Shown piece after piece: positions 6,613 through 37,448 of a DNA stretch of 64,000 nucleotides (its first letter is position 1; the number at the start of each line of letters is the position of its first letter). Below the pieces are notes generated by a model that saw nothing but the letters and a program-made list of their open reading frames with translations, was not told the origin of the DNA and searched no databases. The position numbers and the translations under genes are program-made. The DNA is from Stieleria varia (GTDB lineage Bacteria; Planctomycetota; Planctomycetia; Pirellulales; Pirellulaceae), in contig NZ_CP151726.1 in NCBI RefSeq assembly GCF_038443385.1, positions 1,116,001-1,180,000 on the forward strand. The letters are read 5' to 3'.

Positions 6613-6749
6613 ATCAGCAGTGCTTGTAAATGGAGCGGATCATCCGAAGAGCCGAGAATTCGAAGAGTCAATCATCCGAAGAGTTAGGGGAGTCGTTTGC
6701 ACGATTTTGTCCGCCGTGTGTAAGCTGAGATCGGCACAGACCCATCCCA

Positions 6750-7685: not shown

Positions 7686-7762
7686 TCCAATAGTTTGCTT
7701 CGCTCTGCACCTGTGAAAGATCAAACCGCCCAAGCGATCATCTGTTTGCCCCGCAGCCTGGA

Positions 7763-7980: not shown

Positions 7981-7983
7981 CCC

Positions 7984-8071
7984 ACCCGTAGCCAAAGGCG
8001 TAGGCGGATGCCCCATTTGACCCTGCGGTGCAATCCGGTTGGTAGTGTCTCCTACGCCTTCGGCTGCGGGT
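7984..8071. repeat. Inverted repeat with 21-nt arms
   Basis: ACCCGTAGCCAAAGGCGTAGG at 7984-8004 is mirrored with few mismatches at 8051-8071 around a 46-nt centre. This is a REP-like intergenic palindrome. The rest of 7686-8229 shows no gene. Confidence 0.65.
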
Positions 8072-8229
8072 CAAACGATGTCGCGCACTTCGGCTGATTG
8101 CAATTCGGTTAGATTATTGGTCGCTATTGAGCGACGCCTTGGCGACGCGTGGTCACCGAGGCCCGCAAGCCGGGAACGCAAGACGGATGAGATATTTTCG
8201 CTACATTACGCTTAGGACCTTGAAAGATC

Positions 8230-9681: not shown

Positions 9682-9777
9682 CTAGCGTATCGTCCAGTCT
9701 TGATCGATGAACACGTCTCGCTGGGGTATAATCATGGCTGAACGAATCCGCCTCATGCACTCCACGGGACAGCACTC

Positions 9778-10740: not shown

Positions 10741-10764
10741 AGCTCGTGAGTGTGATCTCGCTGA

Positions 10765-19963: not shown

Positions 19964-21670
19964 TCAACCCGCGTGGTGCGCCGGCGATTCGCAGGAGACC
20001 GGCAGTTGGCTGACGGGCAACGAGGCACCCGGCATGTCTGCAACGCTGCGTGGGTACTCGGCGTGGTGCTTTGCAAAATCGATCGAAGCGTCCAACGTTT
20101 CCAGGATCTTTTGCGTTTGCAAATCGAAGTGCAGAAAGCTGCCCATGATCGTGTGGGCGTACTCGAACTTCGTCGGACCCATCATCGCGGCGCGAAAGAA
20201 GTTTCGCAGGTACAACCAACGCGTCCGACGATCACCCAACATGCGACGTTGAATGGTAAAGAAGCCGCGAGTCATCCGTTTCAGTTCCCAGCGGTTGGGG
20301 ATGTGCTTGTTACGGATGTTCAATCGGCTGGCGGTATCGATCACGCGGTCCATGAACGCGCGGGGCGAGTAGACTTCCGCAATGATGGTCTTGAGTTCCT
20401 GATAGATCTCGACGCGATCACGCATGGTGACGAAGTTCAATCCGCTGGCGGTTTGGTCTTTTGATTCGTTGCTGCGAAGTTCATAAGGTGCCGTCGAATC
20501 GTTGAGCCAGCGGTGCTGTGAGTCGATCAACCGCCGTTCACGTGTCAGACGCCGAGTGAGTTGTGTGTTGGGCAGGGCGCTCAGTAGCCCGACCATGGCC
20601 AGTGAAATGCCGCTTTCCTGGATGAACTGGATCATCGGCTTGTCGGTTCCCGGTTTGTCGGTATCAAAACCGATGATCAGACCGGCGGCGATGGAGATGC
20701 CATGGTCATAGATGGTTCGCACACGCTGGATGATCGGAAGAACGGTGTTGATTCGTTTCTGAGTGTGAATCAATGTTTCTTCGTCGGGTGATTCGATGCC
20801 CAAGAACACGTAGCGAAACTGAGTCTCCTGCATCAGCTCAAGTAGTTCTTTGTCGTCGGCCAAGTTGAGGCTGGCTTCGGTGGAGAACACGAACGGGTAC
20901 TTGTGTTCTTCGTTCCAAGTTTTAAGTGCGACCAACAGCGGCTTGATCAATTTGCGATTGCCGATGAAGTTGTCGTCGGTGAAATCGACCCAGCCTCGAT
21001 AGCCGTGATTGTACAGATGGTCCAGTTCGCCGATGAACTGCTGGACCGTCTTGACGCGTGGTCGTCGGCCGAACAATTCAATGATGTCACAGAATTCACA
21101 GTTGTAGGGACAGCCGCGTGAGGTCTGCAGGCCGACATGGAGGTAGTCGTCGAACCGGATGAGGTCAAAGCGTGGAGGTGGTGTCTTGGTTACATCGGGT
21201 TTGTGGGGCGACTCGAACTTGCCGCGAGGATTCCCCTCCCGCCAAGCTTGCAACCACATCGGGATCGTTTCTTCGCCTTCGCCCATCACCACCGCGTCGG
21301 CTGCGGTGTAGATCTGCGGTTGGCTGGTAGGATCGGGGCCGCCTACGGCGACAAATTTTTCGTCCGCGTTGGCGCGACGAACGAGTTCCAGGATGCCCGG
21401 TTGCTGAGGCAGCATTCCGCCGGTGCAAATGATCTGGGCCCAATTCCAATCGTCGTCGCTCAGTGGGCCGACATTCAAATCCGCCAGTCGAAACTCCCAC
21501 GAGTTGGGCAGCAACGCGGCAACGGTCATCAGTCCCAGGGGAGGCGCGGTGGCCTTGGCACCGATCGCTCGGGCGCTTTCGACAAAATTCCAGTAGTTGG
21601 TTTGCTCAAAGCGTGGCTGGATCAACAGACAACGGATGGGCTGATCGGGCGATTCGGGCAGCATTTGCAT
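19964..21670 (-). CDS. B12-binding radical SAM protein
   Basis: A 568-residue protein; the ATG at 21668-21670 or a second ATG two codons on are both possible. The N-terminal 150 residues resemble a cobalamin-binding Rossmann domain (LLIQPRFE... PPLGLMTVAALLP... ICTGGMLPQQ), lacking a clear DxHxxG. The radical SAM core follows with SRGCPYNCEFCDI (about 184-196), the CxxxCxxC cluster ligand, and DFTDDNFIGNRK. The C-terminal part matches the DUF4070 type seen in hopanoid- and bacteriochlorophyll-related methylases. It probably methylates an unactivated carbon, substrate unknown. It is divergent from the large synthase gene 366 nt away, so a role in that pathway is possible but unproven. Confidence 0.88.
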   Translation of the reverse strand: MQMLPESPDQPIRCLLIQPRFEQTNYWNFVESARAIGAKATAPPLGLMTVAALLPNSWEFRLADLNVGPLSDDDWNWAQIICTGGMLPQQPGILELVRRANADEKFVAVGGPDPTSQPQIYTAADAVVMGEGEETIPMWLQAWREGNPRGKFESPHKPDVTKTPPPRFDLIRFDDYLHVGLQTSRGCPYNCEFCDIIELFGRRPRVKTVQQFIGELDHLYNHGYRGWVDFTDDNFIGNRKLIKPLLVALKTWNEEHKYPFVFSTEASLNLADDKELLELMQETQFRYVFLGIESPDEETLIHTQKRINTVLPIIQRVRTIYDHGISIAAGLIIGFDTDKPGTDKPMIQFIQESGISLAMVGLLSALPNTQLTRRLTRERRLIDSQHRWLNDSTAPYELRSNESKDQTASGLNFVTMRDRVEIYQELKTIIAEVYSPRAFMDRVIDTASRLNIRNKHIPNRWELKRMTRGFFTIQRRMLGDRRTRWLYLRNFFRAAMMGPTKFEYAHTIMGSFLHFDLQTQKILETLDASIDFAKHHAEYPRSVADMPGASLPVSQLPVSCESPAHHAG

Positions 21671-22036: not shown

Positions 22037-25000
22037 ATGCCCCTCCCAAATTCTTCTCACGCGATCCTGGTCACCGGTGCCACCGGAATGGTGGGCGCTC
22101 GAGTCCTGGCGGAGTTTTCGCGAGCAGGAATTCCGTGCGCGGTCATCGCTCGCGACAAGGCCAGCCAATCGGCGACGCAGCGAATCGACGAGCTGATGCA
22201 GCGTTTCGAGCTGGCTTGGTCATGCGATTTGCCGCGTCCGCGGGTCTTTGTGGGCGATGTCACGCAGCCGCGTTTGGGGCTGGACTCACGGGCGATGGAC
22301 TGGGTTTCGCGAAACTGTGATCAGATCTTGCACAGTGCGGCGAGCTTGAACTTCGCTCCGGCAAGTGAAAACCCAGACAACGAGCCTTTTCGAACCAACA
22401 TCCTGGGCACGCAAAATGTATTGGACCTGTTTCGGGAAACGGGACTGAAGCACCTGCACCACATCTCCACGGCTTACGTGTGTGGGCTGCGAAGTGGACA
22501 CGTGGCGGAATCCGAGAACGCGGTCGGTCAGTCGTTCGCCAATGATTACGAGCAGAGCAAGTCACAGGCGGAATCGATTCTGTCGACACGACTGTCTCGA
22601 GAAAGTCACACCACCTATCGTCCATCGATCGTGATCGATCCGATCGGACTGACACCCGTCTCCGGCGATCGAACGATCTACGGCGCGTACTCGATGTACA
22701 AAATGCTGGCCTCCCGGTTTGGATTGCCCGCCGACGGACAATGGTTTCGCAATCTTGGTTTCGGCGGAGACGAACGCAAGAACCTGATCGATGTGAATTG
22801 GATCGCCCAGGCCATTCGAACGATCGTGATGCATCCCGAGCACCACGGTCGAAACTACCATTTGACGGCGACCAGCGGGACTCGCATCGAGTTGTTGGAC
22901 CGCACGTTTTACGAAAGCACACGACAATGGCTGGCCGGCCGCAAAGTGCAGACGCGCCCGAAGTCCATGACCGGTGCGGATTCAGCCGGCGCGGATGCAG
23001 CCAAGGCCGCCGCAGAAATCGATCAACTGGCTCAACCCTTCGTCAAAACATTCTTGCCTTATTTCCGTGACGATCCTGTGTTCGGTCGTAGCAACATCGA
23101 TCACGTCATCGAGACGACTCCGCTCTCACCTCCTCCGGAAATCGGCCGCGCTGAATTGATGGCGATGGTGGAAAATTGGTCTGCGCCGACACCCAAAGCT
23201 GGCAGCAAGTTGATTTCAAAATCCGCCAGCAGCATTGCCCCGCAGAAACAATCGCCCCAACCATCTTCGCTGGATCCAGCTTCGACCTCCCCCTCACCGG
23301 CCGACGACCCCATCGTGATTTGCGGTTACGCGGTTCGCTTGCCAGGTGGCATTGACGACGCGGATGATTTTGAAGCGTTGTTGTACCGCGGTGGCAGTGC
23401 GATCGCCCGCATGCCAGATGATCGTTTGGACAGATCGTTGTACATGGATCTCAAGCGTGGTGTGCCGGGCAAGACTTACACCGAGATCGGTGGCTGCGTC
23501 GATCCGACGCCGATCGATCGCGAAGTGGAGTCAAAGATCAATCGCATCGGCGATTTTGATTTGACGCATCGTCAGTTCGCTCAAGTTGCGTATCGAGCGA
23601 TGCAGTCCACCGGCGCGACCATGGCCGACATCGACTGCGAGCGCACGGGCGTTTTTGTCGGGCACAGCGGGGGCACAGAGGACGGTGGTTCGTTGGCCCT
23701 GAGCACACTTGCCCAGGCAGCCGCCGACTTGGCAAACCAGTCCACCTCGGGCACGGTCCCGGCCGGAACGGCATCGGCGGTCAGCCACGAAATCGTTCAG
23801 GCTGTACGCCAAGATCGCCCCCGTCGCGGAGCCGATCATCATCCCGAACTCAACGCTTATGCGGCCGCGTCGTTGGCCGCTCGATTGCTCGGTTTCCAAG
23901 GACGCCGCGAAGTCATCGACGCGGCATGCTCGTCCTCTTTGTTGGCGTTGCATCATGCGGCTTCGGCGATCATCGCCGGTCGCATGGATGTCGCACTGGT
24001 CGGTGGGGCGACTTACAACAACGTCGACAATTTGGCCTTGTTCTCACGCACCCACGCGTGCAGCGATCAAGGTTCGTTTCCGTTTGATCAACGCGCCAGC
24101 GGTTTGGTCAGCAGCGAAGGCTATGTGGCGATCATTCTGTCGCGACGCAGTGTTGCCGAAGCGGCGGGGATGAAGATTCACGCGACATTGGAAGGCGTCG
24201 GGATCTCATCGGATGGCAAAGGCAAGGGACTGTGGGCGCCGCGTAGCGAAGGCCAACAGCTTGCGATGCGACGCGGTGCAGGTTGCGACACGAATGCGTT
24301 CAACCATGCCCCTCCGTTAGACATCGATTATCTGGAATGCCACGCGACCAGCACCCAAGTCGGTGACGCGACCGAACTGGAAAGCCTGACGGCGTTGTTG
24401 AGCGATCATCCTCAGCAACACCAGTCCCCGTTGCCGATCGGCAGCGTCAAGAGCAATCTGGGACACTTGCTCGAAGCCGCCGGCTTGGTCGGAATGGTCA
24501 AGTGTTTGATTGCGATGCGACGCGGCGAGATCCCCGCCTCGATCAACTTCAGCCAACCGACGAAATCCTTCGACTGGTCCAAGGGCGTCGTGCGAGTGGT
24601 CGACCGCACCGAGCCGTGGCAAGTTCGCGGCGAGCATTCGACCCGTCGTGCCGCCGTCAATGCGTTTGGCATCGGTGGCCTCAACGCACACGCCGCGTTT
24701 CGCCAGTATCAACCCAACGGCAGCGTGGGCGCGTTGAAATTGGGCGGCATGCCGAAACAGACGGTCGAACCGATCGCGATCGTCGGTCGCGGTTTGGTGC
24801 TGCCCGGCGCGGCATCGGTGGGTGAGTTTGAGTCATTGTTGCAGAGCGGTCGATCCGTCTTGGGGCCTCCGCCGCCGGGTCGCTGGCCGACGTTCCAGGG
24901 TCGACCGATCGGATTGGCTTTAGACAGCGATGCAGATTTTACGATTCCCCATCATCACGGCGGATACATCCAAGATTTTCAGTTTGATGCGCAAGCGTAT

Positions 25001-28000
25001 CGCATTCCGCCCAAGCTGGTGGCCAACGCGAACCCGGCTCAACTGATGCTGATCGACGCCGTCAGCCAAGCGATGAAAGAATTTGATGGCGGTCAATGGA
25101 ACGTCGACCGGCAACGCGTCGGCGTGATCGTCGGATCGATGTTCGGCGGTCAGTTCAGCAACGAATTGCAAATCGGACTACGGCTGCCGGAGCTTTGTCA
25201 GCATTTGATCCGTGCAGCGATGCGTCGTGGCGTCGATTTGATAACGGCGCAGCAGTGGGCCGCGGCTTATCACGAGGCGGTGATGGAGCGGTACCCCGCG
25301 TTGCTGGATGAAACGGGCGGTTTCACCGCCAGCACGCTCGCGTCGCGAATCGCCCGAACATTCGATCTGATGGGCGGAGCTTGCGCGGTGGATGCCGACG
25401 AAGCTTCCGGCGGATTGGCGATTTTGACCGCCATCGAGCAACTACAATCGGGTAGCATCGACACCGTGCTCTGTGGGACCACGCAACGATCGATGGATCT
25501 GGTCGCGTTGGAGCAGTTGTATCGGAACCATCGGCTCTGTTGTTCCGTCTCACCGGAAGATCTGCCGCTGGACGGAACCAAGATCTTTCCGGCCGAAGGC
25601 GTTGCAATCATAGTGCTGCAGCGATTGAGCGACGCAAAGGCTCAAGGGCGAAAAATTTACGGCGTGATCGAAAACGCCCGCGAATCATTCACACCTGATC
25701 CCAACGTCGGTCGTGCCCGCGACGCGAGTCGAAGCCAAGAAAACGACGTCTACTCCACTCACCAATTGGTCCGTCAGATCGGACATTTGGGCGGCGGTCA
25801 CGGGGTCGTGCGAACCATTGCGGCGACCATCGCGGCAAATACAGCGGGAGAATCCTCCGGATCAGCCCCAGCGTCCAGAGTCGTCTGTGTCGCCGAAACA
25901 GCTTCGGACGGCTACCAAATCGAATACCAAGTTTCCACTGCCTCGGAATCGTCCATGAGTCGCTCGCAACAAGAGCCCATCGAAATGACCGTCGACAGTA
26001 CGACACAACCTGCGTCGGATAACTTGTCCTCATCACCTGCGCGAGTCTCCGTGAATTCAGTCGTGACACCCTTGTCGGTTCGTTTAGAAGTCTCTTCAGC
26101 GTCGGCGATGCAACAGGCCCTCGAAGCTTTGAGCGCGGGCGACGCCGCAATGCGAACCCCTGCGGCCCTGAACAATGGAACCGGCCGCAAAATCGGAATC
26201 GTCAGTCGATTCTCCGATCCATCGCACATTCAAGCAGCGATCGTAGCTCGTGACGAAAACGAACTTCAAGCCTCCGCTCGTGCGTTGTTGGACGGCCCGG
26301 TCTCACGCGGGGAAAGCGCCTCGCTGCAGCGACACTGCGGCTGGGTTCGTTTTCCCTCATCGATCAGCGGTCAACGCATCGCATGGCTGTTTCCCGGTCA
26401 AGGATCCCAGTACGCCGGCATCCCCGCGTCATTGACCGCCGCAGCTTCTTCGGCGAACTCCGGCCAACCCGACGAATTGCTCTCGCGGTCTCTGGCGGTT
26501 TTTGATGCGGAGCTAACCCGACTGGGGCTACAGCCGATCGCCGATCGAATCACCGATCCGCAGCGTCAGCTGGGCAAAGAAGTTTGGTGGACACAAGCCT
26601 GGTTGCTGGCCGTGGGAACGGCGTTGGCGCAATCACAACTCAGTCGCGGCCACCGGCCCGACGTCGTCATCGGTCACAGCTTCGGTGAATGCACTGCGGC
26701 GTGGTGTGCCGGTGCGATGACGACTCGTCAAGCGATCGAGTTTGCCAAGTCACGCGCCGATGCCGTGGTCATGTCGGGCGGTCCTCGCGGGCAACTGCTG
26801 TCGGTACGCGGCGGTCCATCTCAAGTCGACGCGGTGCTGCGAAGCGTCAATAGCGAGTGTGTGATCACCCATCATAACTCACCACAACAAACAGTCATCG
26901 CCGGTACGCCCGAACAAATCGCTGCGGCACAAAAAGCGTTGTCTAAAGACGGTGCCGCATCGGTCGTCATTCCGGTCCCCGCTGCCTTCCATACACCCGG
27001 GATGAAACCTGCACGAGACATGCTTGCCGCGCGACAAGCCGGCGCCTCGTTGCTGCCTCCTCGCTTTGGTTTCCTGTCCTCGATCGAAAACCGATACCTA
27101 GCCGAACCGGGCGATGTCTTGAACAATCTGATCGATCAATTGGTTCGACCGGTATGTTTCAGTTCGTCGATCGAGCGTGCGTCACACGACGGTTGCGGAT
27201 TGATGGTGGAGATTGGACCCAATAATATCTTGACCCGTTTGGCATCGGCCACCGTGGGCGGCAAGTCCATCTGTTTGTCGGCGGACGATCCGAATCTCGA
27301 CAATACTTGTCAGACGCAAGTGATCGAATTGGCATACGAGGCGTTCGGTGCAGCCACCATCGGTGCGTCTCAGATCACAGTGCCTAGCAATCACGCATCT
27401 GGCCATCCCTCGACGGCATCGCAAGCTGTTTCAGTTGCCCAGACGCAAACACCGGATGCCACGCAAACCACGCCGGCGAAGCGGTTTGATGTGGTCGATG
27501 TGACGCGACGCGGTCGCACCCGAACGTCAGCCGATGACCAAGACGACGTGAATCGGGATTCCGGTTCATTGCGTTCCACTTCGTCATCTGCGACAGCCGT
27601 ACAACCGACCAGCCATGTCTCGTATTCGACGAACACAGCAGTGGCACAGCCTGAGGTCGCTCCTGTTGTCACCCACAGCGTTGCCACGATGGCAAGAGAG
27701 AACGTGGGGGGCGAAAACGCGGCAGCCAAGAAGTTCTTGTTCGATCTGATCGTCGACTTGACCGGGTACGAACCGGAGATCATCGATTTCGAAGCTGATT
27801 TGGAAGCCGAATTGGGCGTAGACAGCATCAAGAAAGCACAACTGATCGGCGAACTGGTGCAGTGGGCCGATTTGAGTTTGACCACGCAAGATTTGAAGTT
27901 GGCTGATTTCCAATCGCTCGCCGACATCTTGGCTTTGGCCGGTCCCGCCACCGAGTCGGTCCCCGCACCAACGTCGAGTCAAGCCGTTGTCGTCGCCAGT

Positions 28001-30961
28001 CCGGTGTCGGCGGAACCCGATCAGTCGGTCGATCCAGAATCCTTGCGTCGCCTGATGATCGACTTGCTCGTCGATCAAACCGGGTACGACGAAGACATTA
28101 TCGATATGGAGGCGGATCTGGAATCCGAACTCGGCGTCGACAGCATCAAACGCGCACAGTTACTCGGTGAGTTAGAACAACAGTTCGAGTTGCCACCCAT
28201 CCAAGGTTCCGATTTGCGTTTGTCGGATTTCCCCACGCTGGCATCGATTCATCAGTTTGTGATGGATCAAGTCGGCGGCGAAAAAAAAAAGTCTTCAGCG
28301 CTGAATGACTCCGCGGTCTCGGCTACCGAGGTCGTTGACGAGCACGTCACGCTTACCAAGCCCGTCACGCCGCGCAAGACCGTTAAGCCTGACAGCGAAA
28401 TCCAGAACGCTCCGGTCAAGGTGCCCGTGTTGCCGATTCCCGCGACAGGCACGCACCGATTCACGCTGACGGTTCGCGATGCAGATCGACGTGATGGCAT
28501 GCCGACAGCGCCGAAGTTTCATGGACCGGCATTGGTCATCGGTAACAACCCGATCGCCGATGCGATCATTCGGCGTTGGGCAGGTGAGCCGTATGCGATC
28601 GAGCAGATCAAGTCCGTTTCGCTAGCGGAAATCGATGGTGTGTTGGATCAGGTTTGGTCCAAGGGATTCAGTCATCATGTGTTCCTGACCACGCCGCATG
28701 ATGCCATCGCACTTACCGATCCGGACGACTTTGACCACTGGCAACGTCGGCGGGAAGACGCATTGATGGTGCCGTATCGAATCTGCCAACGCTGGATGCA
28801 GCGTGCGATCGACGAAGACCGAATAAGTGAGTCTTCCTTGGTCACGTTTCTCAACGCCGGTGGGGCGTTCGGATTTGATCTGGTGCCTGATATCGTCACG
28901 GCGGGTACGCCGGAGTCTGGTGGTTTGTCCGGTTTGACCAAGGCGATGCTGATCGAGTGCTGGATGCGTGGCTATCGCGACACACCGATGCTGATCGTCG
29001 ACGCGATATTGCACAACGGCGACTCGGTCGACCGTAGCGACTTGGTGGTAGATGGCGTGTGGCGTGAGCTGGCGGTTCCCTCGTATGATGAGGAAGTCGC
29101 CGTGTCGGGACCAACGCGACGAACCATTCAAGCGATCTATCAGCCGATCCCGCAAGCCGGCGAGTTGTCGCCGATCCGTCAGATCTCCACACGTTACCCT
29201 CTGACCCGTGGGGGCACTTGGGTGGTCGCCGGTGGCGGGCGTGGGATCACGGCGATGACGGCGATGGAACTGGCTCAACGCCATGACCTGACGTTGCATC
29301 TGCTGGGCATGGCACCGATCCCTGAGATCGATGCGGCCACGCGGGCACACGCCCAAGCCGACCGGGCTGATTTGCGTCGCTGCACGATGAAACGTATTCA
29401 GGCGGCTGGCGGCAATCCGGTCAAGACTTGGCGGCAACTGGAGAAGGCCATCGAGATCGATTTGACGCTCGACGAGTGTCGGCGACGAGGGATCCGGGCC
29501 ACCTATCACAGTGTCGATGTTTGTGATGCCGGTGCGGTTGCTGCCGCACTCGATGAGATTCGTAAGATCGATGGACCGATTCATGGCGTGATCCAAGGTG
29601 CCGGATCGGGACAAGACGCGCGTTTCGATCGTAAACGTCCCGACAAAGTGGACCAGTGTTTGAAAGCCAAGATTGACGGTACGATCGCGCTGGCGGCGGC
29701 GACCAAGCAAGACCCGCTGGAATGGTTTGTCGGATTCGGTTCCATCAGCGGACGCTTCGGCGCCAACGGGCACACCGACTATTCCGCCGCGAACGAGATG
29801 CTGTCCAAGTTGATCGGGCAGCTTGGACGCAAGCGACCTGATACTCGCTGCGTCACCTTTCACTGGCACGCGTGGGGCGACATCGGCATGGCGACCAAGC
29901 CGGAGGCCAAACTGGCGTTGGACATGATCGGAATGGAGTTCATGCCCGCCGCGGAAGGGCTGAGCCATTTCCTCTCCGAATTGGAAAATGGCGGTGATGA
30001 CTCCGAAGTCTTGATCACCGATCGACGCTACGTCCGCAAGTTCTTTCCCAACGAACCAGCCACGGGACCGAAGTGCGCACCGATGATCGCACCCCAGTCC
30101 ATCACGCCGTCGCAGTCCGGAGCGAATTCCTTTGCCGTCACGCTGTCCCCCGGTGATGACTTGTTCCTCAAAGAACACCTGGTGAATTCGCGACCGACGT
30201 TGCCGATGGTGATGGCAGCAGAAATGTTGGCGGAAGCCGCCCAGGTCAGCACCTCCCTGTCGGTCATCCGACTGGAAAACCTGCGGGCAATCGCGCCACT
30301 GAAATCCAGCAGCGATGATTCCTTTGCCGTCGAACTGGTCCGAGACGATGCCTTCAACGCCAAGTCCGCCGACGGCCTGCTGCAACGTTGGTCATTGCAA
30401 TGCGATCTCAGACGCAAGGACGGACGGTTGGTCCAAGCCGGACGTCCCCACTTCACCGCCGACCTGTTGCTTGCCGTGCAGCGACCTGCGGTGCCGACGG
30501 TTTCCGCCAAGGAGCGTTTGGCCGGTCTCCCGATCGCGATGAACCCCGTGCCGTATCTGCCCGCCGACGCACCGATCTATCATGGCCCGTCCCTGCAAAA
30601 CCTGCGCTCGATTGGGTTCACCGATGATGCGGCCGTGGGTGTGATCGTGACACCCAGTCCATCGCATCTGGCCGGCGAATCACGACCGGTTCATTCATGG
30701 GTGATTTCACCGGCGACCGTTGATGCCATGCTCTACGCATCGGGAATGATGGCCGGACACGTTGCCGGTCGCCCCAGTTTGCCGATTTCCATCGACGCCA
30801 TGGACTTGGGCAGGTTGCCCGATCCTGGTGAGCCGTTGCGAGTGGTCGTGCGTTGGCTGGAACAGTCCGAAACGGGCGCCAAGCTGCAGGTCGTTCTCTC
30901 TGGTCAGAATCATGATTTGATCGTGCGGATTCGCGGCTATCAAATCGGCTGGTTGGGTTAG
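22037..30961 (+). CDS. Iterative type I polyketide/PUFA-type synthase
   Basis: A 2974-residue megasynthase. Start is the ATG at 22037; a TTG at 21998 is less likely. Domains in order: an NAD-binding thioester-reductase-like domain (residues about 1-310; ILVTGATGMVGARVL, YEQSKSQAE); an active ketosynthase (about 425-890; Cys631 in DAACSSS, then HATSTQVGD and KSNLGH); a second ketosynthase-like domain (about 907-1290) whose Cys is replaced by Glu1122, so a chain-length-factor type; an acyltransferase (about 1447-1750; Ser1548 in GHSFGE); two acyl carrier domains with phosphopantetheine serines 1930 and 2036 in GVDSIK; a ketoreductase (about 2390-2670; Tyr2582); and a PfaA-type hotdog dehydratase (about 2700-2974; KEHLVN). 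No enoyl reductase is present. It resembles PfaA/PfaC-type secondary lipid synthases. The product is unknown; a long reduced acyl chain, aldehyde or alcohol is inferred. Confidence 0.93.
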   Translation: MPLPNSSHAILVTGATGMVGARVLAEFSRAGIPCAVIARDKASQSATQRIDELMQRFELAWSCDLPRPRVFVGDVTQPRLGLDSRAMDWVSRNCDQILHSAASLNFAPASENPDNEPFRTNILGTQNVLDLFRETGLKHLHHISTAYVCGLRSGHVAESENAVGQSFANDYEQSKSQAESILSTRLSRESHTTYRPSIVIDPIGLTPVSGDRTIYGAYSMYKMLASRFGLPADGQWFRNLGFGGDERKNLIDVNWIAQAIRTIVMHPEHHGRNYHLTATSGTRIELLDRTFYESTRQWLAGRKVQTRPKSMTGADSAGADAAKAAAEIDQLAQPFVKTFLPYFRDDPVFGRSNIDHVIETTPLSPPPEIGRAELMAMVENWSAPTPKAGSKLISKSASSIAPQKQSPQPSSLDPASTSPSPADDPIVICGYAVRLPGGIDDADDFEALLYRGGSAIARMPDDRLDRSLYMDLKRGVPGKTYTEIGGCVDPTPIDREVESKINRIGDFDLTHRQFAQVAYRAMQSTGATMADIDCERTGVFVGHSGGTEDGGSLALSTLAQAAADLANQSTSGTVPAGTASAVSHEIVQAVRQDRPRRGADHHPELNAYAAASLAARLLGFQGRREVIDAACSSSLLALHHAASAIIAGRMDVALVGGATYNNVDNLALFSRTHACSDQGSFPFDQRASGLVSSEGYVAIILSRRSVAEAAGMKIHATLEGVGISSDGKGKGLWAPRSEGQQLAMRRGAGCDTNAFNHAPPLDIDYLECHATSTQVGDATELESLTALLSDHPQQHQSPLPIGSVKSNLGHLLEAAGLVGMVKCLIAMRRGEIPASINFSQPTKSFDWSKGVVRVVDRTEPWQVRGEHSTRRAAVNAFGIGGLNAHAAFRQYQPNGSVGALKLGGMPKQTVEPIAIVGRGLVLPGAASVGEFESLLQSGRSVLGPPPPGRWPTFQGRPIGLALDSDADFTIPHHHGGYIQDFQFDAQAYRIPPKLVANANPAQLMLIDAVSQAMKEFDGGQWNVDRQRVGVIVGSMFGGQFSNELQIGLRLPELCQHLIRAAMRRGVDLITAQQWAAAYHEAVMERYPALLDETGGFTASTLASRIARTFDLMGGACAVDADEASGGLAILTAIEQLQSGSIDTVLCGTTQRSMDLVALEQLYRNHRLCCSVSPEDLPLDGTKIFPAEGVAIIVLQRLSDAKAQGRKIYGVIENARESFTPDPNVGRARDASRSQENDVYSTHQLVRQIGHLGGGHGVVRTIAATIAANTAGESSGSAPASRVVCVAETASDGYQIEYQVSTASESSMSRSQQEPIEMTVDSTTQPASDNLSSSPARVSVNSVVTPLSVRLEVSSASAMQQALEALSAGDAAMRTPAALNNGTGRKIGIVSRFSDPSHIQAAIVARDENELQASARALLDGPVSRGESASLQRHCGWVRFPSSISGQRIAWLFPGQGSQYAGIPASLTAAASSANSGQPDELLSRSLAVFDAELTRLGLQPIADRITDPQRQLGKEVWWTQAWLLAVGTALAQSQLSRGHRPDVVIGHSFGECTAAWCAGAMTTRQAIEFAKSRADAVVMSGGPRGQLLSVRGGPSQVDAVLRSVNSECVITHHNSPQQTVIAGTPEQIAAAQKALSKDGAASVVIPVPAAFHTPGMKPARDMLAARQAGASLLPPRFGFLSSIENRYLAEPGDVLNNLIDQLVRPVCFSSSIERASHDGCGLMVEIGPNNILTRLASATVGGKSICLSADDPNLDNTCQTQVIELAYEAFGAATIGASQITVPSNHASGHPSTASQAVSVAQTQTPDATQTTPAKRFDVVDVTRRGRTRTSADDQDDVNRDSGSLRSTSSSATAVQPTSHVSYSTNTAVAQPEVAPVVTHSVATMARENVGGENAAAKKFLFDLIVDLTGYEPEIIDFEADLEAELGVDSIKKAQLIGELVQWADLSLTTQDLKLADFQSLADILALAGPATESVPAPTSSQAVVVASPVSAEPDQSVDPESLRRLMIDLLVDQTGYDEDIIDMEADLESELGVDSIKRAQLLGELEQQFELPPIQGSDLRLSDFPTLASIHQFVMDQVGGEKKKSSALNDSAVSATEVVDEHVTLTKPVTPRKTVKPDSEIQNAPVKVPVLPIPATGTHRFTLTVRDADRRDGMPTAPKFHGPALVIGNNPIADAIIRRWAGEPYAIEQIKSVSLAEIDGVLDQVWSKGFSHHVFLTTPHDAIALTDPDDFDHWQRRREDALMVPYRICQRWMQRAIDEDRISESSLVTFLNAGGAFGFDLVPDIVTAGTPESGGLSGLTKAMLIECWMRGYRDTPMLIVDAILHNGDSVDRSDLVVDGVWRELAVPSYDEEVAVSGPTRRTIQAIYQPIPQAGELSPIRQISTRYPLTRGGTWVVAGGGRGITAMTAMELAQRHDLTLHLLGMAPIPEIDAATRAHAQADRADLRRCTMKRIQAAGGNPVKTWRQLEKAIEIDLTLDECRRRGIRATYHSVDVCDAGAVAAALDEIRKIDGPIHGVIQGAGSGQDARFDRKRPDKVDQCLKAKIDGTIALAAATKQDPLEWFVGFGSISGRFGANGHTDYSAANEMLSKLIGQLGRKRPDTRCVTFHWHAWGDIGMATKPEAKLALDMIGMEFMPAAEGLSHFLSELENGGDDSEVLITDRRYVRKFFPNEPATGPKCAPMIAPQSITPSQSGANSFAVTLSPGDDLFLKEHLVNSRPTLPMVMAAEMLAEAAQVSTSLSVIRLENLRAIAPLKSSSDDSFAVELVRDDAFNAKSADGLLQRWSLQCDLRRKDGRLVQAGRPHFTADLLLAVQRPAVPTVSAKERLAGLPIAMNPVPYLPADAPIYHGPSLQNLRSIGFTDDAAVGVIVTPSPSHLAGESRPVHSWVISPATVDAMLYASGMMAGHVAGRPSLPISIDAMDLGRLPDPGEPLRVVVRWLEQSETGAKLQVVLSGQNHDLIVRIRGYQIGWLG

Positions 30962-31008: not shown

Positions 31009-32160
31009 ATGTTTCATAGCGACAAGTCTCTCCCTGCTCCGTTGGATGCAAGCTGCTACAGCGGTGAGGCTGCGTATGTCAACGATGTGACGAGATTGAG
31101 GGCCCGCGGATGGCAGCTCGTTGCGACCACAGGAATGCTGGCCAAGCCAGGTGACTACTTTGCCACCGAACGTCTCGGTGTTCCCCTGGTGATTCGAAAC
31201 CATGACGGACAGTACGTTGCCTTTCGCAATGTGTGCGCGCACCGTAGTTGTCGCATCGCAAAACCGGGCAAAGGTCACACCGAGCAGATCAAGTGTCCGT
31301 TTCATGGTTGGCACTACGGTGCCGATGGCCGAACACGCAAGATTCCGGCGGCGAAGAATTTCCCTCATCACGATCGTGAGTCGTACCGCCTGGCAACCTT
31401 TCGCGTCGCTCAAGTCGGTCAACTGTTGTTCGTCCACTTGGCTCATTCGCCCACCGCCGCTGAAGATTCCGAAACAGCGAACGATGTTCCCGAGCCGATG
31501 GCGCAATGGACCCAACAGTTCGCCCAGCGAACGGCAGCCCAGCACTGGCGTTTCGTCTTGCACCGCGAGCTGGAGTTCGATTGCGACTGGAAGATCCCGA
31601 TCGAAGGTGCCTTGGAGAGTTATCACTTGGCGGAAGTCCACCCGGGGACATTTGGCGAAGGCCCCGACGAAGAATCGACCGAGCATCTGTTGTCAGTAAG
31701 CGGCACCAGCTTTGAAACACTGCAGCGAGATGACTCCAAGATGGCTCGCTTTGAGGAGAACGTGATCAGCATGTTGACCGGGTCATTCGATCCTCGTTAT
31801 CGCCACGTTCACGTCTTTCCGAATCTGATGGCCACGCTGACGGACACCCTCAGCTTGGTCTACCAAACCTGCCCCATCGCTCCTCAACGTTGCCGAATGA
31901 CGGTGTTCGGATTCACTCCTGCGGCCAGACAGTGGGGGATTTTGGGACGCGGCGTCGCTCGCTGGGTCGGTTGGGCGACGTCCTACATGGCGATGAAGGT
32001 GCTGGCGGAAGACGCGGCGATCTTTCCAGAGGTCCAAAGTGGACTCAATGCATTGGCGACGGCTGGCGGTTGTCAAACACCGAGGATACTGGGACGTTGT
32101 GAAGAACGCGTTCATGCTTTCCAATCACACTGGTCGGCTCACATTGCTCAGCAGCGATAG
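31009..32160 (+). CDS. Rieske non-heme iron oxygenase, alpha-type
   Basis: A 383-residue protein starting 47 nt after the synthase. The Rieske 2Fe-2S ligands are Cys76, His78, Cys96 and His99 in CAHRSC...KCPFHGWHYG. The catalytic domain contains EGALESYHLAEVHPGTFG (about residues 200-217), the region that supplies two His ligands for mononuclear iron, with the carboxylate further on. These enzymes hydroxylate, desaturate or demethylate with electrons from a separate reductase, for which no gene is seen here. In this setting it probably oxidises the synthase product. Confidence 0.9.
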   Translation: MFHSDKSLPAPLDASCYSGEAAYVNDVTRLRARGWQLVATTGMLAKPGDYFATERLGVPLVIRNHDGQYVAFRNVCAHRSCRIAKPGKGHTEQIKCPFHGWHYGADGRTRKIPAAKNFPHHDRESYRLATFRVAQVGQLLFVHLAHSPTAAEDSETANDVPEPMAQWTQQFAQRTAAQHWRFVLHRELEFDCDWKIPIEGALESYHLAEVHPGTFGEGPDEESTEHLLSVSGTSFETLQRDDSKMARFEENVISMLTGSFDPRYRHVHVFPNLMATLTDTLSLVYQTCPIAPQRCRMTVFGFTPAARQWGILGRGVARWVGWATSYMAMKVLAEDAAIFPEVQSGLNALATAGGCQTPRILGRCEERVHAFQSHWSAHIAQQR

Positions 32161-32211: not shown

Positions 32212-32997
32212 ATGAGTTCAAGCGAAATCGACGGACAATGTCTCAGCGGCCGATGTGCTTTGGTGACAGGAGCCAGTCGTGGCATTGGTCGCGCCACGGC
32301 GATCGAATTGGCAAGACAGGGTGCTCACGTCGCGGTCAATTTTCTCAACTCTCAAGCGAGCGCTGTTTCGGTCGCCGAAGAGATCGATGCATTGGGCGGC
32401 CAAGTCATGCTCGTTCGCGCCGATGTGTCATCACGCGACGATACCATTGCGATGATCCAGCAAGTCACGCAGCAATTTGGTGCCCTGGACATCGTGGTCA
32501 GCAACGCAGCAGCCGGCGGTTTTCGTAGCTTGATGGATCTGACGCCGGTGAATCTGGAGGCAACCCTAAGGACGAATTCAGCCGCGGCGCTATGGCTGGC
32601 CCAAGCCGCCGCGGAGCCTTTGTCCGCCAGCAGCGGTCACGGCAAACTGGTGGCGATTAGCAGCCACGGCTCCCAGTGGGCCGTTCCGCACTATGGGGCG
32701 ATCGGAGCCTCCAAGGCGGCATTGGAAAGCATGATCCGACACCTCGCACTGGAACTGGGCGAGCGAGGAATCAATTTCAACTGCGTGTTGCCCGGCATCA
32801 TCGCGACCGAAGCGATCGCGACGATGCCCGGTGCCGAATCGATGGTGCAAGCGGCCAAAGATCGTATGATGGTCGGCCAACGAGATCTCACCGCACAAGA
32901 TGTCGCCAAAGTCGTTGCCTTTCTCTGCAGCCCGGCAAGCGATTTGATTCAAGGGCAAACGATAGTCGTCGATGGTGGGGTCAGTATTCGTGTCTGA
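32212..32997 (+). CDS. SDR enoyl-ACP reductase, FabL-like
   Basis: A 261-residue short-chain dehydrogenase. NADP-binding TGASRGIGRA is at about residues 16-25 and NAAAGG near 96. The catalytic tyrosine and lysine are spaced Y-x6-K (Tyr161 and Lys168 in HYGAIGASKAALES), as in enoyl-ACP reductases FabI/FabL, not Y-x3-K as in ketoreductases such as FabG. The C-terminus SDLIQGQTIVVDGG resembles FabL closely. It would reduce enoyl-ACP to acyl-ACP. Its place behind a synthase with KR and DH but no ER suggests it acts in trans on that enzyme. A FabG-like ketoreductase role is the alternative. Confidence 0.85.
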   Translation: MSSSEIDGQCLSGRCALVTGASRGIGRATAIELARQGAHVAVNFLNSQASAVSVAEEIDALGGQVMLVRADVSSRDDTIAMIQQVTQQFGALDIVVSNAAAGGFRSLMDLTPVNLEATLRTNSAAALWLAQAAAEPLSASSGHGKLVAISSHGSQWAVPHYGAIGASKAALESMIRHLALELGERGINFNCVLPGIIATEAIATMPGAESMVQAAKDRMMVGQRDLTAQDVAKVVAFLCSPASDLIQGQTIVVDGGVSIRV

Positions 32998-34477
32998 CGG
33001 GGCGGGAACACTGCTGACGAAAGTACTGCCGACGACGGTGGTCGAGCGATACTTCGCGCGCCCATCACACCGAAATCAGATGGTGTTCACACTGGATCTG
33101 ATTTGGGATCGCCTGATCGATGCAACGCGATTGCGTGATGCTTGGCAGTCCGTCGTTCAACAGAACGTGCGACTGTACAGCGTGATGTCGGGACGGGGGC
33201 ACGAACAAGTTTGGACTCCGTCTGAAATCATGATGGACAAGGTGTTTTTCTTTGATGATCAATCCATCGGCGATCAACCGACAAGAGAACCGATCGCAGT
33301 TCCCTGTGTTCGTCGCGGAGTCGGTGCAACGCTGACATCGTGGCGTGTCAATGAATCTCAATCGGCGATCCGAATTCAGTTTCATCACGCGAGTTGTGAC
33401 GGGTTGGGTGCGGGGCGTATCGTCGCCGATCTGATTCGCAGAATGAGGGACGTCGAGCCTCGCTCGGCCGCTGACGTTGACGGTGGGGCTGCAGCGATGG
33501 CCGCATCGACGGGGGATTCGTCCTCTGACATTTCGCACGGAGACGACGAGCAGCCAACTGCCGCCTTTGTGATGCCTGACTGGCGAAACACGTATGCCAC
33601 CATTCGCGGTTCCAACCTGCGACTAAGCCGACATGGACGGCCCGTCGAGTCGGATCGTGACTTGACCGAAAAGACGAACATCATCAAACGTGACGATGTG
33701 ACCTTTGAACTCTGGTTTGACTTGGAATTTTCCAACGATCTGCGACGGATGCTCAAACGTAACCGATTGCCTCTCAATGACTTGGCCGTCGCAGCGACGG
33801 TCCAAGCGATGGCGGACGTGACGTCGACCGCCGCGTCGCCCCGTCGCTATGTCATGGTCATGAACCCCGTTCAGAATCGAACCTGGGCTCAGCGACGCTG
33901 CACGGCCAACCATGTCGGTTTCGCCTACATTCGTCGGCGGCACCAAGATTATGACGGTTTCTTGGATTTGGTGCAGTCCGTGCATTCGCAAATGGACGAC
34001 ATCCGCAGGTACGGCACCGCCAACGAACTCGCCTGGGGCATGGAAAAGATGGAACGCCTGCCCGGTGGTCTGTGGGGGATTGAAAAACTGGGCTGGTTCA
34101 TACCGACCGCCAGCGTGACTTGTCTATCAAGTTTTCGTCTGATCAAGAATTTCGGGTTTGATTCGGCCGCCGGTCGCGACAGGCGGGCGGCACACGATTT
34201 GCGGACATCCGAATTCACGAAAATGGAATCCGACGTATCGGATTCGCGTCCGGCGGCAAGTCAAATGCAACTCAGTGCGGTCCGCGGCAGCCCTCCGCTG
34301 CAGGCCGGCGGAGAGCTTGCCCTGGCCGTCATGGACCTGGGCGGGGCAATCAGCGTTTCCTTTCGTGGTGCGACCAACAAATCCGGTTCAAACCGGCCAC
34401 TTTTGCCAGACAATGTCATGATCGCGATTTGCCGCCGTTGGGCAAATGCGGCTTTGAGCTACCATGACGGCTTCTAA
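32972..34477 (+). CDS. HHxxxDG acyltransferase (condensation/WS superfamily)
   Basis: A 501-residue protein. The ATG at 32972 overlaps the preceding gene by 26 nt; a GTG at 32990 gives an 8-nt overlap. Either implies translational coupling. It carries HHASCDG (His138, His139, Asp143), the catalytic motif of the CoA-dependent acyltransferase superfamily that includes NRPS condensation domains, wax ester synthases and polyketide-associated Pap enzymes. The N-terminal and C-terminal halves are as expected, with a low-complexity acidic insert at about 165-195. It likely transfers an acyl chain to an alcohol or amine of the cluster product; donor and acceptor are unknown. Confidence 0.85.
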   Translation: MVGSVFVSDGAGTLLTKVLPTTVVERYFARPSHRNQMVFTLDLIWDRLIDATRLRDAWQSVVQQNVRLYSVMSGRGHEQVWTPSEIMMDKVFFFDDQSIGDQPTREPIAVPCVRRGVGATLTSWRVNESQSAIRIQFHHASCDGLGAGRIVADLIRRMRDVEPRSAADVDGGAAAMAASTGDSSSDISHGDDEQPTAAFVMPDWRNTYATIRGSNLRLSRHGRPVESDRDLTEKTNIIKRDDVTFELWFDLEFSNDLRRMLKRNRLPLNDLAVAATVQAMADVTSTAASPRRYVMVMNPVQNRTWAQRRCTANHVGFAYIRRRHQDYDGFLDLVQSVHSQMDDIRRYGTANELAWGMEKMERLPGGLWGIEKLGWFIPTASVTCLSSFRLIKNFGFDSAAGRDRRAAHDLRTSEFTKMESDVSDSRPAASQMQLSAVRGSPPLQAGGELALAVMDLGGAISVSFRGATNKSGSNRPLLPDNVMIAICRRWANAALSYHDGF

Positions 34478-34501: not shown

Positions 34502-35680
34502 ATGGAACAGAATTTACTCAAAGTCGGCACCTTCCTGCTCGGTCTCGCATTGGTCGGCATGCTGGGGTACCGCTACCTCAAGAATGCGGAGTTTCAATTC
34601 AGCCCCGCTGCCTCGAACACCACCACCAATGTTGAATTGACTGCCGTGGATGACGGTGAGTTGGGTGACTCGTTCGCCAAAGCCGGCGCCGGGGGCACAT
34701 CGGTATCGCCGGATGTCGAGACCCCCGAAGTAGAAGACGAAGGCCCGATGCTACGTGTCGGCGTGATCGGGGCAACGCCCGCGCGGGACGAAGTCACTCT
34801 GTTGCGTGAAGTTCCCTACGCCGAGCGTTTGGTCAAGCAGTTGTACAACGAGTCACGTGGCCGCGCGTGCCGCATGCTGGTCCCCGGCGCAACCGTCGAG
34901 CCACCGATCTCGCGAGTGCCCGCGCGTCGTGCCGGTACGTTGGGACGGACCAGTGTCTTGACCATCGGCTTGGAATTGGATCCCCGAGCACGCGCTAAGC
35001 TGCCCGCGGTCACGCGTGGACAAGTCGAACAGTATTTCAATAAACACCGCTTGGCGATTCAGCCGGTGATTTATCACGATGACGAAGGTCGTCCTTACTT
35101 CGGGACCGATTGCCAAGCCGCTTTCTTTGACATCGCCGAACCCACCGTCACGGTTCCCGCAGAACCGATGATCGAGTCGGCCGTCGCACGATTCCGCGCT
35201 CTCGGTGTCGTGGCCAATGGCGATATCGCAAAATCAAGCGATGCATTCTTTCTGGGCCGAACTCTGGCCATGGCCTTTGTGTTTGAACGCAGCGATCTGT
35301 CGACTGAGAGCAGCGGAACATCGGCCAAGAAATCAACCGAGTTGCTGTTTCTGCATTTGCCCGAGCAAGCCACGCTGAGCGATCTGCAAATCGAAGCGTA
35401 CATCACCAGTGATGACCGAACGACGTTGCATCGTTTGGACATCGGCGATGATCGATTGGGCGCTCCCGCACCGACCATCTCCGCCGACATCCGGTTCGAC
35501 AAGATGGTCTTGCTGGGCATGTACCCCTCCAGCCCCGTCGTCACCGACATGCGTTACCGCACGATGGGCGTTCTCTCGATGGCGACGATCCAGCAGCTGT
35601 GTGAACCGTCCGAGGACGGCGACATCATGAGCCTGAGCGAAGTCCTCGACCAATTCGGCAAACTCGCCGGCCGCAGCTAA
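34502..35680 (+). CDS. Membrane-anchored hypothetical protein
   Basis: A 392-residue protein starting 24 nt after the acyltransferase gene, so probably the last gene of the same operon. One N-terminal membrane helix (VGTFLLGLALVGMLGYRYL, residues about 7-25) is followed by a Thr/Ala/Glu-rich linker and a soluble domain of about 310 residues (from MLRVGVIGATPARDE) facing the periplasm. The domain has the look of a mixed alpha/beta fold, but no family or catalytic motif is recognised. Confidence 0.85.
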   Translation: MEQNLLKVGTFLLGLALVGMLGYRYLKNAEFQFSPAASNTTTNVELTAVDDGELGDSFAKAGAGGTSVSPDVETPEVEDEGPMLRVGVIGATPARDEVTLLREVPYAERLVKQLYNESRGRACRMLVPGATVEPPISRVPARRAGTLGRTSVLTIGLELDPRARAKLPAVTRGQVEQYFNKHRLAIQPVIYHDDEGRPYFGTDCQAAFFDIAEPTVTVPAEPMIESAVARFRALGVVANGDIAKSSDAFFLGRTLAMAFVFERSDLSTESSGTSAKKSTELLFLHLPEQATLSDLQIEAYITSDDRTTLHRLDIGDDRLGAPAPTISADIRFDKMVLLGMYPSSPVVTDMRYRTMGVLSMATIQQLCEPSEDGDIMSLSEVLDQFGKLAGRS

Positions 35681-36257: not shown

Positions 36258-36295
36258 TTGACTCAAGCCGAGTGCATTACTACAGTAATGCACTA
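36258..36295 (+). promoter_or_regulatory. Leaderless promoter with embedded operator
   Basis: -35 TTGACT at 36258-36263, a 17-nt spacer and -10 TACAGT at 36281-36286. The -10 lies inside a 10-bp perfect dyad, GTGCATTACT-AC-AGTAATGCAC (36272-36293). Transcription would start within a nucleotide or two of the ATG at 36295, so the mRNA is expected to be leaderless; no ribosome site is present. The dyad is the probable self-repression operator of the encoded GntR/YtrA-type regulator. Confidence 0.85.
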
Positions 36296-36684
36296 TGAGT
36301 ATTTCATCGGGTGATTTCAACGTTTCGCCGTCTTCTGGTGTGCCGATCTTTCGGCAGATCATCGATCAAGTCGTAGCGATGATCGCCTCCGGGGCTCTCG
36401 TCGGTGGCGACATGTTGCCCAGCACGCGTGAGATGGCTCGCTCTCTGGAGGTCAACATGATGACCGTCTCCAAGGCTTATTCACGGCTGGAGTCCGACGG
36501 CATCGCGCAGCGGGTTCGTGGCCGAGGGATGCAGATTTGTGCGTCAACCAGTAAGGGCTCACTTGGCGAGCGGAAAACGGAGTTCTCCTCTCATTTGGAG
36601 CCAGCGATTCATCGGGGGCGTCAGTTGGGGCTGACCGACGCGCAGATTCTTTCCATTGTCAAAACCATGCTCGGGGATCAGTGA
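36295..36684 (+). CDS. GntR/YtrA-family transcriptional regulator
   Basis: A 129-residue protein with a winged helix-turn-helix at about residues 15-80 (VPIFRQIIDQVVAMIASGAL, LPSTREMARSLEVNMMTVSKAYSRLE) and only a short helical C-terminus. There is no effector domain, as in the YtrA subgroup. YtrA-type proteins repress ABC transporter operons of which they are the first gene, which fits the layout here: the ABC ATPase follows at once. The palindrome over its own promoter is the likely binding site; the inducer is unknown (in Gram-positives, often cell-wall-active compounds). Confidence 0.93.
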   Translation: MSISSGDFNVSPSSGVPIFRQIIDQVVAMIASGALVGGDMLPSTREMARSLEVNMMTVSKAYSRLESDGIAQRVRGRGMQICASTSKGSLGERKTEFSSHLEPAIHRGRQLGLTDAQILSIVKTMLGDQ

Positions 36685-36686
36685 CT

Positions 36687-37448
36687 ATGAGTGGACCAGT
36701 GATCACATGCCAAAACGTGACAAAATGTTTTGGAAAGACGGAGGTTCTCAGGGGTGTCGACCTGGAGGTTCCGCGGGGCGCCATCGTCGGCTTAGTGGGC
36801 ACCAACGGCTCGGGCAAGTCCACGTTGATCAAGTGTCTACTTGGTTTACTGAAGGTTTCCTCCGGGACCGCTCGGATTCTCGGCGAAGACTCCTGGGACT
36901 TGTCGGCGAGCGTCAAGAACACGTTGGGATACGTGCCTCAGGAAATCAAGCTTTATCCATGGATGCGTGTCAGCCAAGTCATCGACTACACCGGTGCGTT
37001 CTATGAAAAATGGGATTCCTATCGATGCAACGAACTGCTGGAACAGTGGGAACTGGATGGTTCCAAATGGATCAAGACTCTCTCGGGCGGGCAGCTTCAG
37101 CGACTCGCTTTGGTGCTGGCGCTGGGGCACCATCCTTCGCTACTGATCTTGGATGAACCTGCCGCGAGCCTGGATCCTGTCGGGCGTCGGTCGTTCTTGA
37201 AATCGCTGCTGGAGATGAACGAGGATGGCGGGCAAAGCGTGCTGTTCTCCACGCACATTACGTCTGACTTGGAGCGTGTCGCATCTCACGTTGCATTCCT
37301 GCACGACGGTCGCGTGCAATTCTTTGGTGAGTTGGAGGAGTTGAAAGATCACGTCGGCGGCAACCTGGAGGACATCTTCCTGCAGATGAATCGCACGCCG
37401 GAGTTTGCAGGATTGAACCACGTGTCGGGAGATCAGAGCCATGTTTAA
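36687..37448 (+). CDS. ABC transporter ATP-binding protein
   Basis: A 253-residue ATPase from the ATG at 36687; a GTG at 36681 overlapping the regulator's stop codon is also possible. Walker A is GTNGSGKST (about residue 38), the signature LSGGQLQRLALVLALG (about 133), Walker B LLILDEPAASLDP (about 155), and the switch His lies in FSTHI. The family (CcmA-like) drives export by two-component ABC transporters. Its stop overlaps the start of the permease gene by 8 nt, so they are translationally coupled. Confidence 0.95.
   Translation: MSGPVITCQNVTKCFGKTEVLRGVDLEVPRGAIVGLVGTNGSGKSTLIKCLLGLLKVSSGTARILGEDSWDLSASVKNTLGYVPQEIKLYPWMRVSQVIDYTGAFYEKWDSYRCNELLEQWELDGSKWIKTLSGGQLQRLALVLALGHHPSLLILDEPAASLDPVGRRSFLKSLLEMNEDGGQSVLFSTHITSDLERVASHVAFLHDGRVQFFGELEELKDHVGGNLEDIFLQMNRTPEFAGLNHVSGDQSHV

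Follow-up and report, generated by a model that had tools for sequence, protein, structure and literature searches.

A giant protein of 2974 amino acids (aa) encoded by the planctomycete Stieleria varia (Pirellulaceae, Planctomycetota), in which an N-terminal thioester reductase (TR)-type domain precedes a ketosynthase (KS), a chain length factor (CLF), an acyltransferase (AT), two acyl carrier proteins (ACPs), a ketoreductase (KR) and a dehydratase (DH), is interpreted here, with a probability of roughly 0.72, as an iterative secondary-lipid synthase of the polyketide or fatty acid kind that was born by fusion with a TR gene, whose TR domain would release the chain as aldehyde or alcohol and whose product would be tailored by enzymes encoded downstream. 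The megasynthase gene occupies positions 22037 to 30961 of the forward strand of the window, that is, of the 64,000 nucleotides analysed, which correspond to positions 1116001 to 1180000 (+ strand) of a one-contig genome of 9.72 Mb. Loci fetched in the survey carry L numbers and genomes surveyed G numbers, with G000 the genome of the window. The domains and their motifs, the operon and a clade of fused forms standing beside unfused tandem loci can all be read in the DNA.

The open reading frame (ORF) runs from an ATG at 22037 to a stop codon at 30961; a TTG 39 bases upstream is a possible alternative start, but a Rossmann motif follows close behind the ATG. The first-pass annotation of this DNA had described one polypeptide of about 2974 residues with the order TR-KS-CLF-AT-ACP-ACP-KR-DH, which is borne out by the ORF, Pfam profiles, motifs and fused orthologues. 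The domain search with hidden Markov models that it had proposed gives NAD_binding_4 at residues 12-260 (E 2.8e-36, 125 bits versus a cut-off of 20.1) inside a TR domain delimited at residues 8-378 (22058-23170), and then ketoacyl-synt twice, plus Ketoacyl-synt_C. The KS itself (residues 422-892, 23300-24712) has its Cys-His-His intact and is followed by a second KS-like unit (residues 912-1345, 24770-26071), identified by motifs and alignment and read as CLF because a Glu stands at the position of the active Cys (VDADEAS), with Asp in its place in two fused orthologues. Across both units, the KS-CLF region aligns to structure 6riw, which we take to be a Pfa-type KS-CLF. Further downstream follow the AT domain (residues 1440-1765, 26354-27331; Acyl_transf_1 at 1450-1740, motifs GHSFGE and AAFHT), two carriers with PP-binding matches (GVDSIKKAQ at 27734-27931, limits approximate, and GVDSIKRAQ at residues 2008-2071, 28058-28249), the KR (residues 2393-2614 for both domain and Pfam match, 29213-29878) with Ser and Y-x3-N present, and a polyketide synthase (PKS)-type DH (PKS_DH_N/PS-DH, residues 2692-2969, 30110-30943), supported by profile and motifs. 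A secondary-lipid synthase in the sense of Shulse and Allen has a KS, an ACP and a KR as its minimal set, to which CLF, AT, DH and enoyl reductase (ER) are added in varying combination (PMC3098273); by this definition and by its KS-CLF pair, the megasynthase belongs where the first-pass annotation had placed it.

Conservation and recurrence show that this frame is not a chance product. In an alignment of the window protein with 16 other fused orthologues (two as first piece only) and one unfused synthase, TGxxGxxG, the STAY (S/T) position and Y-x3-K are kept in the TR of 17/17 fused sequences, the KS Cys-His-His, the AT GHSxGE and two GxDSIK carriers throughout, and KR Ser/Tyr/Asn and DH His/Asp wherever covered (15 fused sequences); no sign of decay is seen in these motifs. 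TR and KS matches in one frame occur in 18 of 199 genomes of the family, belonging to 5 of 68 genera (17 as a single alignment, G391 as two), and the fetched DNA of all 18 holds a stop-free TR-KS ORF, while the orthologues of G382 and G434 are interrupted by contig ends and were counted apart. The nearest named relatives of the gene are in Neorhodopirellula, Rhodopirellula and Rubripirellula, and Neorhodopirellula pilleata (L028) and Rubripirellula obstinata (L030) possess orthologues with the same domain order and motifs. Among 246 genomes drawn evenly from the phylum only the window's own genome, and among 347 genomes of the class three, contain the fused form; the family, phylum and class draws overlap in genomes, and the whole-genome survey was confined to this phylum. 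A scan of genome contigs with the full protein returned a Shewanella pfa locus and three relatives from Pirellulaceae, fused or split and of full length, four loci in all. Plasmid records, 72,556 in number, contained no place that covers 80% of the megasynthase.

Not every orthologue keeps all domains on one polypeptide: R. europaea 6C (L029, a record that also appears as L079) and L074 have a break between ACP2 and KR, and L077 has one between KS and CLF. At the ACP2/KR split of L029 and L074, the two ORFs lie about 65 and 110 bases apart. Such splits might be taken to suggest that the fused frame is an artefact of assembly or annotation. Occurrence in 18 genomes and five genera, with four of the genomes consisting of one contig (G000, G373, G417, G256), and the union of the fused forms in one clade of both the TR and the KS tree argue so clearly against an artefact, already unlikely as far as the assembled sequence goes, that hardly any weight is left to it. 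Additional fusions seemed to be indicated in G281, G397 and G400 by one frame length for TR and KS (L081-L083) and were rejected, as at least one stop codon separates TR and KS in the DNA; in L082 (11500-13594), stand-alone TR and synthase share a frame with a single stop codon in between, a state near another fusion.

The origin of the architecture can be approached through the unfused relatives. At class level, the TR is a gene of its own of 487-551 aa, ending -65 to +110 bases from the synthase start (mechanically assigned starts); of the 12 class loci fetched, nine (L130-L134, L136, L138-L140) show this gene immediately before the synthase. In L137 the TR is cut by a contig end, the contig of L135 leaves only 0.7 kb in front of the synthase, and L141 shows no TR. 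Within the family, the same tandem is present in L111 and L112. The 18 fused rows form one clade in the TR tree (49 rows, support 100/93) and in the KS tree (58 rows, 100/99), which is joined to the tandem loci L130-L133 at 100/100 in both trees. Since the fused forms are one clade next to L130-L133 whichever domain is followed, one fusion of adjacent genes is the best reading, and the architecture appears best explained by a single in-frame fusion of the upstream TR gene to the synthase. The N-terminal place of the reductase, which the first-pass annotation had singled out as unusual, is indeed seen in the sequence; it requires, however, no new domain logic, because fusion with the gene directly upstream explains it. 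The trees were calculated without the duplicate records L067, L070 and L079 (identical to L030, L028 and L029), the truncated L075, L076 and L137, the short loci L051-L053, other extended short-chain dehydrogenases/reductases (SDRs) of the genome, TR matches below 120 bits (for example L101) and KS matches below 300 bits. L080-type loci, formerly considered the nearest unfused kin, were replaced by L130-L133 once the class loci entered the trees. In a second group of planctomycete clusters, a stand-alone TR is located near other KS-CLF synthases in 12/12 loci (L081-L092), picked for having both listed in the survey; as loci were generally chosen where the survey listed KS or TR, such shares of TR-synthase linkage are not unbiased frequencies. 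A two-synthase variant was observed in L083, L084, L092 and L114: besides a stand-alone TR, KS-CLF and ACP each form a protein by themselves, and a second synthase protein carries KS-CLF-AT-KR.

Assignment of the N-terminal domain to the thioester reductase type, equally put forward in the first-pass annotation, is upheld by the conserved motifs and by its relatives. Its best solved relatives by sequence are the MxaA reductase (4u7w, E 5.5e-21) and a type I PKS domain (8v1x, 1.9e-15), followed in the PDB by a non-ribosomal peptide synthetase ('Nrp') reductase and by carboxylic acid reductases at 5.7e-5 and weaker, which rank among sugar-nucleotide dehydratases/epimerases of similar score. TR domains are also found in other settings. 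The window's own genome encodes, at 9.40-9.41 Mb (L101), a megasynthase of 3055 aa (3722-12889 of the locus) with KS-AT-KR and a TR-like domain at its C-terminus, where such domains usually sit. In L099, a stand-alone TR (1368-2786) and a related condensation-type acyltransferase (HHACCDG, 9396-10925) lie about 7 kb apart in a stretch in which no KS was found, and such a pair for release and ester formation may also serve without a PKS.

Downstream of the megasynthase, the operon extends on the forward strand to about 35680; presence of its genes was counted over 20 distinct fused loci with a tblastn check. A Rieske non-haem iron oxygenase of 383 aa (31009-32160), recognised by Pfam and orthologues, carries the Rieske cluster motif and a His-pair motif and is encoded in 8 of the 9 tandem class loci (not L136). 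The following FabL-like SDR of 261 aa (32212-32997) is encoded in 20/20 fused loci and in 7/9 tandem class loci (not L139 and L140), and its best solved relative is the FabL enoyl reductase 3oic (1.9e-53). Whereas Y-x3-K is the signature of FabG, Y-x6-K is that of FabI/FabL, and the latter is present in 28/28 SDR rows of KS-CLF clusters (25 distinct records) and lacking in two other SDRs of L102; this SDR is the best candidate, and probably the source, of enoyl reduction in trans. Next comes a condensation-domain/PapA5-like acyltransferase of 501 aa (32972-34477, HHASCDG), identified by motif, structural model, Pfam hints and orthologues, with HHxxxDG in 17/17 rows of its family (15 distinct records, window copy included). 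By tblastn, its gene is found in 5/9 tandem class loci (L131-L133, L138, L139), and L136 and L140 show weak profile matches bearing HHxxxD; the fetched stretches of L130 and L134 stop just past the SDR gene. The last gene (34502-35680) encodes a protein of 392 aa with an N-terminal hydrophobic helix, conserved among orthologues in 19/20 fused loci, the twentieth being cut by a contig end; it is sometimes upstream and divergent, a distant relative occurs upstream of the TR in L130, and its model from three sequences was unusable (mean predicted local distance difference test (pLDDT) 36). An ABC transporter pair (36681-39681), purD and other flanking genes were rejected as operon members, having no match at E 1e-15 in orthologue stretches. 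Directly downstream of the operon, 36295-39681 encodes a GntR regulator, an ABC ATPase and a putative permease, which are without match at E 1e-15 beside the fused orthologues in the stretches covered. A neutral ceramidase-like protein (PF04734, E 7.7e-14) is encoded at 8230-9681.

On the opposite strand, a B12-binding radical S-adenosylmethionine (SAM) protein (DUF4070; 19964-21670), supported by Pfam, motifs and orthologues, has its start 366 bases upstream of the megasynthase. At 76% identity or more, the gene occurs in 17 of the 20 genomes with a fused or contig-cut orthologue (16 whole plus G382) and in none of the 179 others; it was not found in the carrier G434, whose contig is short. 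At 60-66% identity it occurs in five more family genomes (G341, G351, G406, G427, G439), of which two (G351, G427) possess a TR-synthase tandem, two (G341, G439) have contigs that stop short of the place where a TR would be seen, and G406 has no synthase listed at 1e-50; in L115 (G341), the gene is codirectional and downstream of the SDR gene. Eleven further genomes have 34-43% matches only, which are taken as other radical-SAM proteins. Of the 12 class genomes, six possess the gene (best copy 47-57%), four of them on a different contig and two (G592, G469) on the same contig at a distance of about 20 kb. As far as these distributions tell, it is closely associated with the fused synthase in that lineage and facultative in the group at large. 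The window copy is 76-83% identical to those of 16 other carriers and is more conserved than the synthase, which shows 48-63% over the first 901 residues where aligned whole. Its NCBIfam family matches include methylases among others, all below cut-off.

Several observations weigh against the interpretation given at the outset. The TR domain scores under the NCBIfam thioester reductase cut-off (TIGR01746, 102.5 versus 213.35 bits) and is for this reason termed TR-type and not a TIGR01746 member. The ACP profile was cut off-centre, between the carriers, so that its hits are approximate and ACP counts rest on motifs and Pfam. Equally, the SDR is below the FabL cut-off of NCBIfam (253.6 versus 328 bits) and the acyltransferase below those of Pfam (WS_DGAT_cat 17.8 versus 23.6 bits, PapA_C 15.1 versus 30), while the Foldseek search that ranks PapA5 (1q9j) first in the PDB (E 2.2e-9, probability 1.00, 14% identity, root mean square deviation 12.6) started from a poor model of three sequences (mean pLDDT 46, predicted template modelling score 0.52) and is used with caution. 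Tailoring genes are unevenly distributed, with the Rieske gene in 14/20 fused loci (absent from L030, L061, L068, L069, L074 and L076) and the acyltransferase gene in 14/20 (none found in L062-L065 and L078; L029 is cut by a contig end). Two fused genomes, G334 and G288, lack the radical-SAM gene, which was likewise not found at E 1e-40 in 6/12 class genomes searched and was for this reason rejected as a core gene of all such operons. Finally, TR and KS trees are midpoint-rooted, L134 and L136 are placed differently in the two, and because the tandem loci beyond L130-L133 are scattered and some deep forks weak (28/82, 54/76), TR and synthase can be said to share their history only within the fused clade and among its closest relatives.

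Reductive release of a secondary lipid is the likely broad function of the system, and the catalytic steps that we infer, including release, esterification and methylation, can be combined as follows. The AT would load malonyl units, which the KS-CLF pair would condense on the tandem ACPs; the KR would reduce and the DH dehydrate, with the FabL-like SDR presumably reducing in trans at some cycles. With NAD(P)H as reductant, the N-terminal TR would then free the finished chain from its ACP, most likely as aldehyde or alcohol, a prediction backed by the operon context and by the zeamine/fabclavine precedent, whose logic is expected here without the aminotransferase. In some lineages the Rieske oxygenase would tailor the released product, in many the PapA5/condensation-type acyltransferase probably esterifies the alcohol, and the divergent B12-radical-SAM enzyme may methylate the chain. 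A released aldehyde might, on the other hand, proceed to a hydrocarbon or another aldehyde-derived lipid instead of being kept as alcohol. TR-type domains may stop at the aldehyde, as the available part of the zeamine report proposes for Zmn14 (PMC3547906), the same genes would serve and five fused loci (L062-L065, L078) lack the acyltransferase gene although their stretches have room for it; with an acyltransferase that fits an alcohol or hydroxyl acceptor better encoded in 14/20 fused loci, however, this outcome is rather unlikely, if the most serious of the competing ones.

A role for the TR-like domain at the outset of the pathway, with for example a starter unit or a keto group as its substrate, rather than in release might be suggested by its N-terminal place in the fused protein. 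This place follows, however, from the gene order before fusion; in L088 the TR gene is the last in the row, behind the synthase, Rieske and SDR genes, and the closest solved relatives are R domains, one from MxaA and one from a type I PKS, so that a role in initiation has only a slight chance of being correct. To a similarly small degree do we expect an ordinary polyunsaturated fatty acid (PUFA) synthase of the Pfa type with shuffled domains. PfaA is the best NCBIfam match of the megasynthase, and tandem GxDSIK carriers and a CLF are present, yet the match is far below the TIGR02813 cut-off (530 versus 1010 bits), and in a KS tree, a quick one with Pfa references and few, long-branched outgroups, the KS belongs to a separate planctomycete clade (Shimodaira-Hasegawa-like approximate likelihood ratio test support 96) apart from Shewanella PfaA and PfaC. 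Score and KS placement together led us to reject Pfa membership; judged by sequence, the megasynthase is neither PfaA nor PfaC, and the first-pass view of joined PfaA/PfaC-type pieces does not hold as it was put. Furthermore, the DH is of PKS type, and among the scanned operon genes, the part of the genome searched for it, no PfaD-type reductase was found, a FabL-like SDR being encoded instead.

Preference for a TR-releasing secondary-lipid synthase born by gene fusion ties a giant orphan planctomycete enzyme to a concrete chemical prediction, namely alcohol, aldehyde or ester lipids. The putative release step occurs naturally both fused and unfused, which allows action in cis and in trans to be compared side by side; the recurrent operon marks where new lipids may be sought in a phylum whose cell biology is unusual, and the N-terminal TR should caution annotation pipelines that look for release domains at the C-terminus alone. 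A more far-reaching, tentative idea, which we consider possible and no better than that, is that planctomycetes hold widespread undescribed secondary lipids, long-chain alcohols made by TR and KS-CLF, some methylated by B12-radical-SAM or oxidised by Rieske enzymes, and esterified by PapA5-like enzymes into an envelope wax, with the release step fused to the front in Rhodopirellula-type genera. If true, this wax would be comparable in its build logic to mycobacterial dimycocerosates.

In the open-licence literature searched, no description of this megasynthase was found. Neither of the two findings by which the first-pass annotation would have been overturned came to light: the N-terminal domain is of TR type, and no characterised family with the order TR-KS-CLF-AT-ACP-ACP-KR-DH was found, whereas the order with an unfused TR recurs in uncharacterised planctomycete operons. 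Among the 20 types of Shulse and Allen, Table 2 lists as planctomycetes Gemmata (Type I) and Planctomyces limnophilus (Type J), and none of the types described in the available part of that paper has a reductase in front (PMC3098273). With Pfa synthases, the megasynthase shares KS, CLF, AT, tandem ACPs and KR; these differ, in the sections at hand, by KS-CLF and KS-AT-ACP-KR on two proteins, a DH pair, the PfaD reductase and lack of a TR (PMC3098273). Heterocyst glycolipid synthases (hgl, Type F), compared by description only, equally unite KS-CLF-AT on one protein but distribute their domains over several genes and lack DH/I domains, according to the same partial source (PMC3098273); a thioester reductase also belongs to their pathway in the accessible text of a further report (PMC10569477). 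A cluster that antiSMASH labels 'hglE-KS' is mentioned, with no further details in the part available, by a 2026 paper on Pirellulaceae (PMC13190842) and might be a TR-synthase cluster of this kind. The 501-aa acyltransferase shares with mycobacterial PapA5 the HHxxxDG motif and the top fold match and differs from it by the low identity of an alignment based on a low-confidence model.

Closest in logic are the zeamine and fabclavine pathways (Zmn10-14; FclC-G, FclL), which, as the available parts of their descriptions have it, share a KS-CLF secondary-lipid synthase, an SDR and reductive release by a TR, with a Cys-to-Glu change in the Zmn11 CLF as in the megasynthase CLF (PMC3547906, PMC9113149). 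In fabclavine formation, the released chain is coupled by the condensation-domain-like FclL (PMC9113149), of which the condensation-type acyltransferase of the window operon is a counterpart by likeness. The likeness of the TR is drawn from these descriptions, not from sequence comparison with Zmn14 or FclG. In the same partial accounts, the zeamine/fabclavine TR is a separate protein (Zmn14 of 412 aa, FclG) and the chains are built on PfaA- and PfaC-like proteins, whereas in the window the TR is fused and all domains reside on one protein; a PfaD-aminotransferase makes amines there, whereas no aminotransferase is encoded among the conserved operon genes, so that the window cluster does not combine a stand-alone TR with a PfaD-aminotransferase as the zeamine/fabclavine type does. 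Nearest in gene order and domains are the planctomycete operons with TR and KS-CLF-AT-ACP-ACP-KR-DH (L111, L130-L134, L136, L138-L140), themselves uncharacterised, which differ by a TR that is a gene of its own and of which L130-L133 share the clade of the fused forms in both trees.

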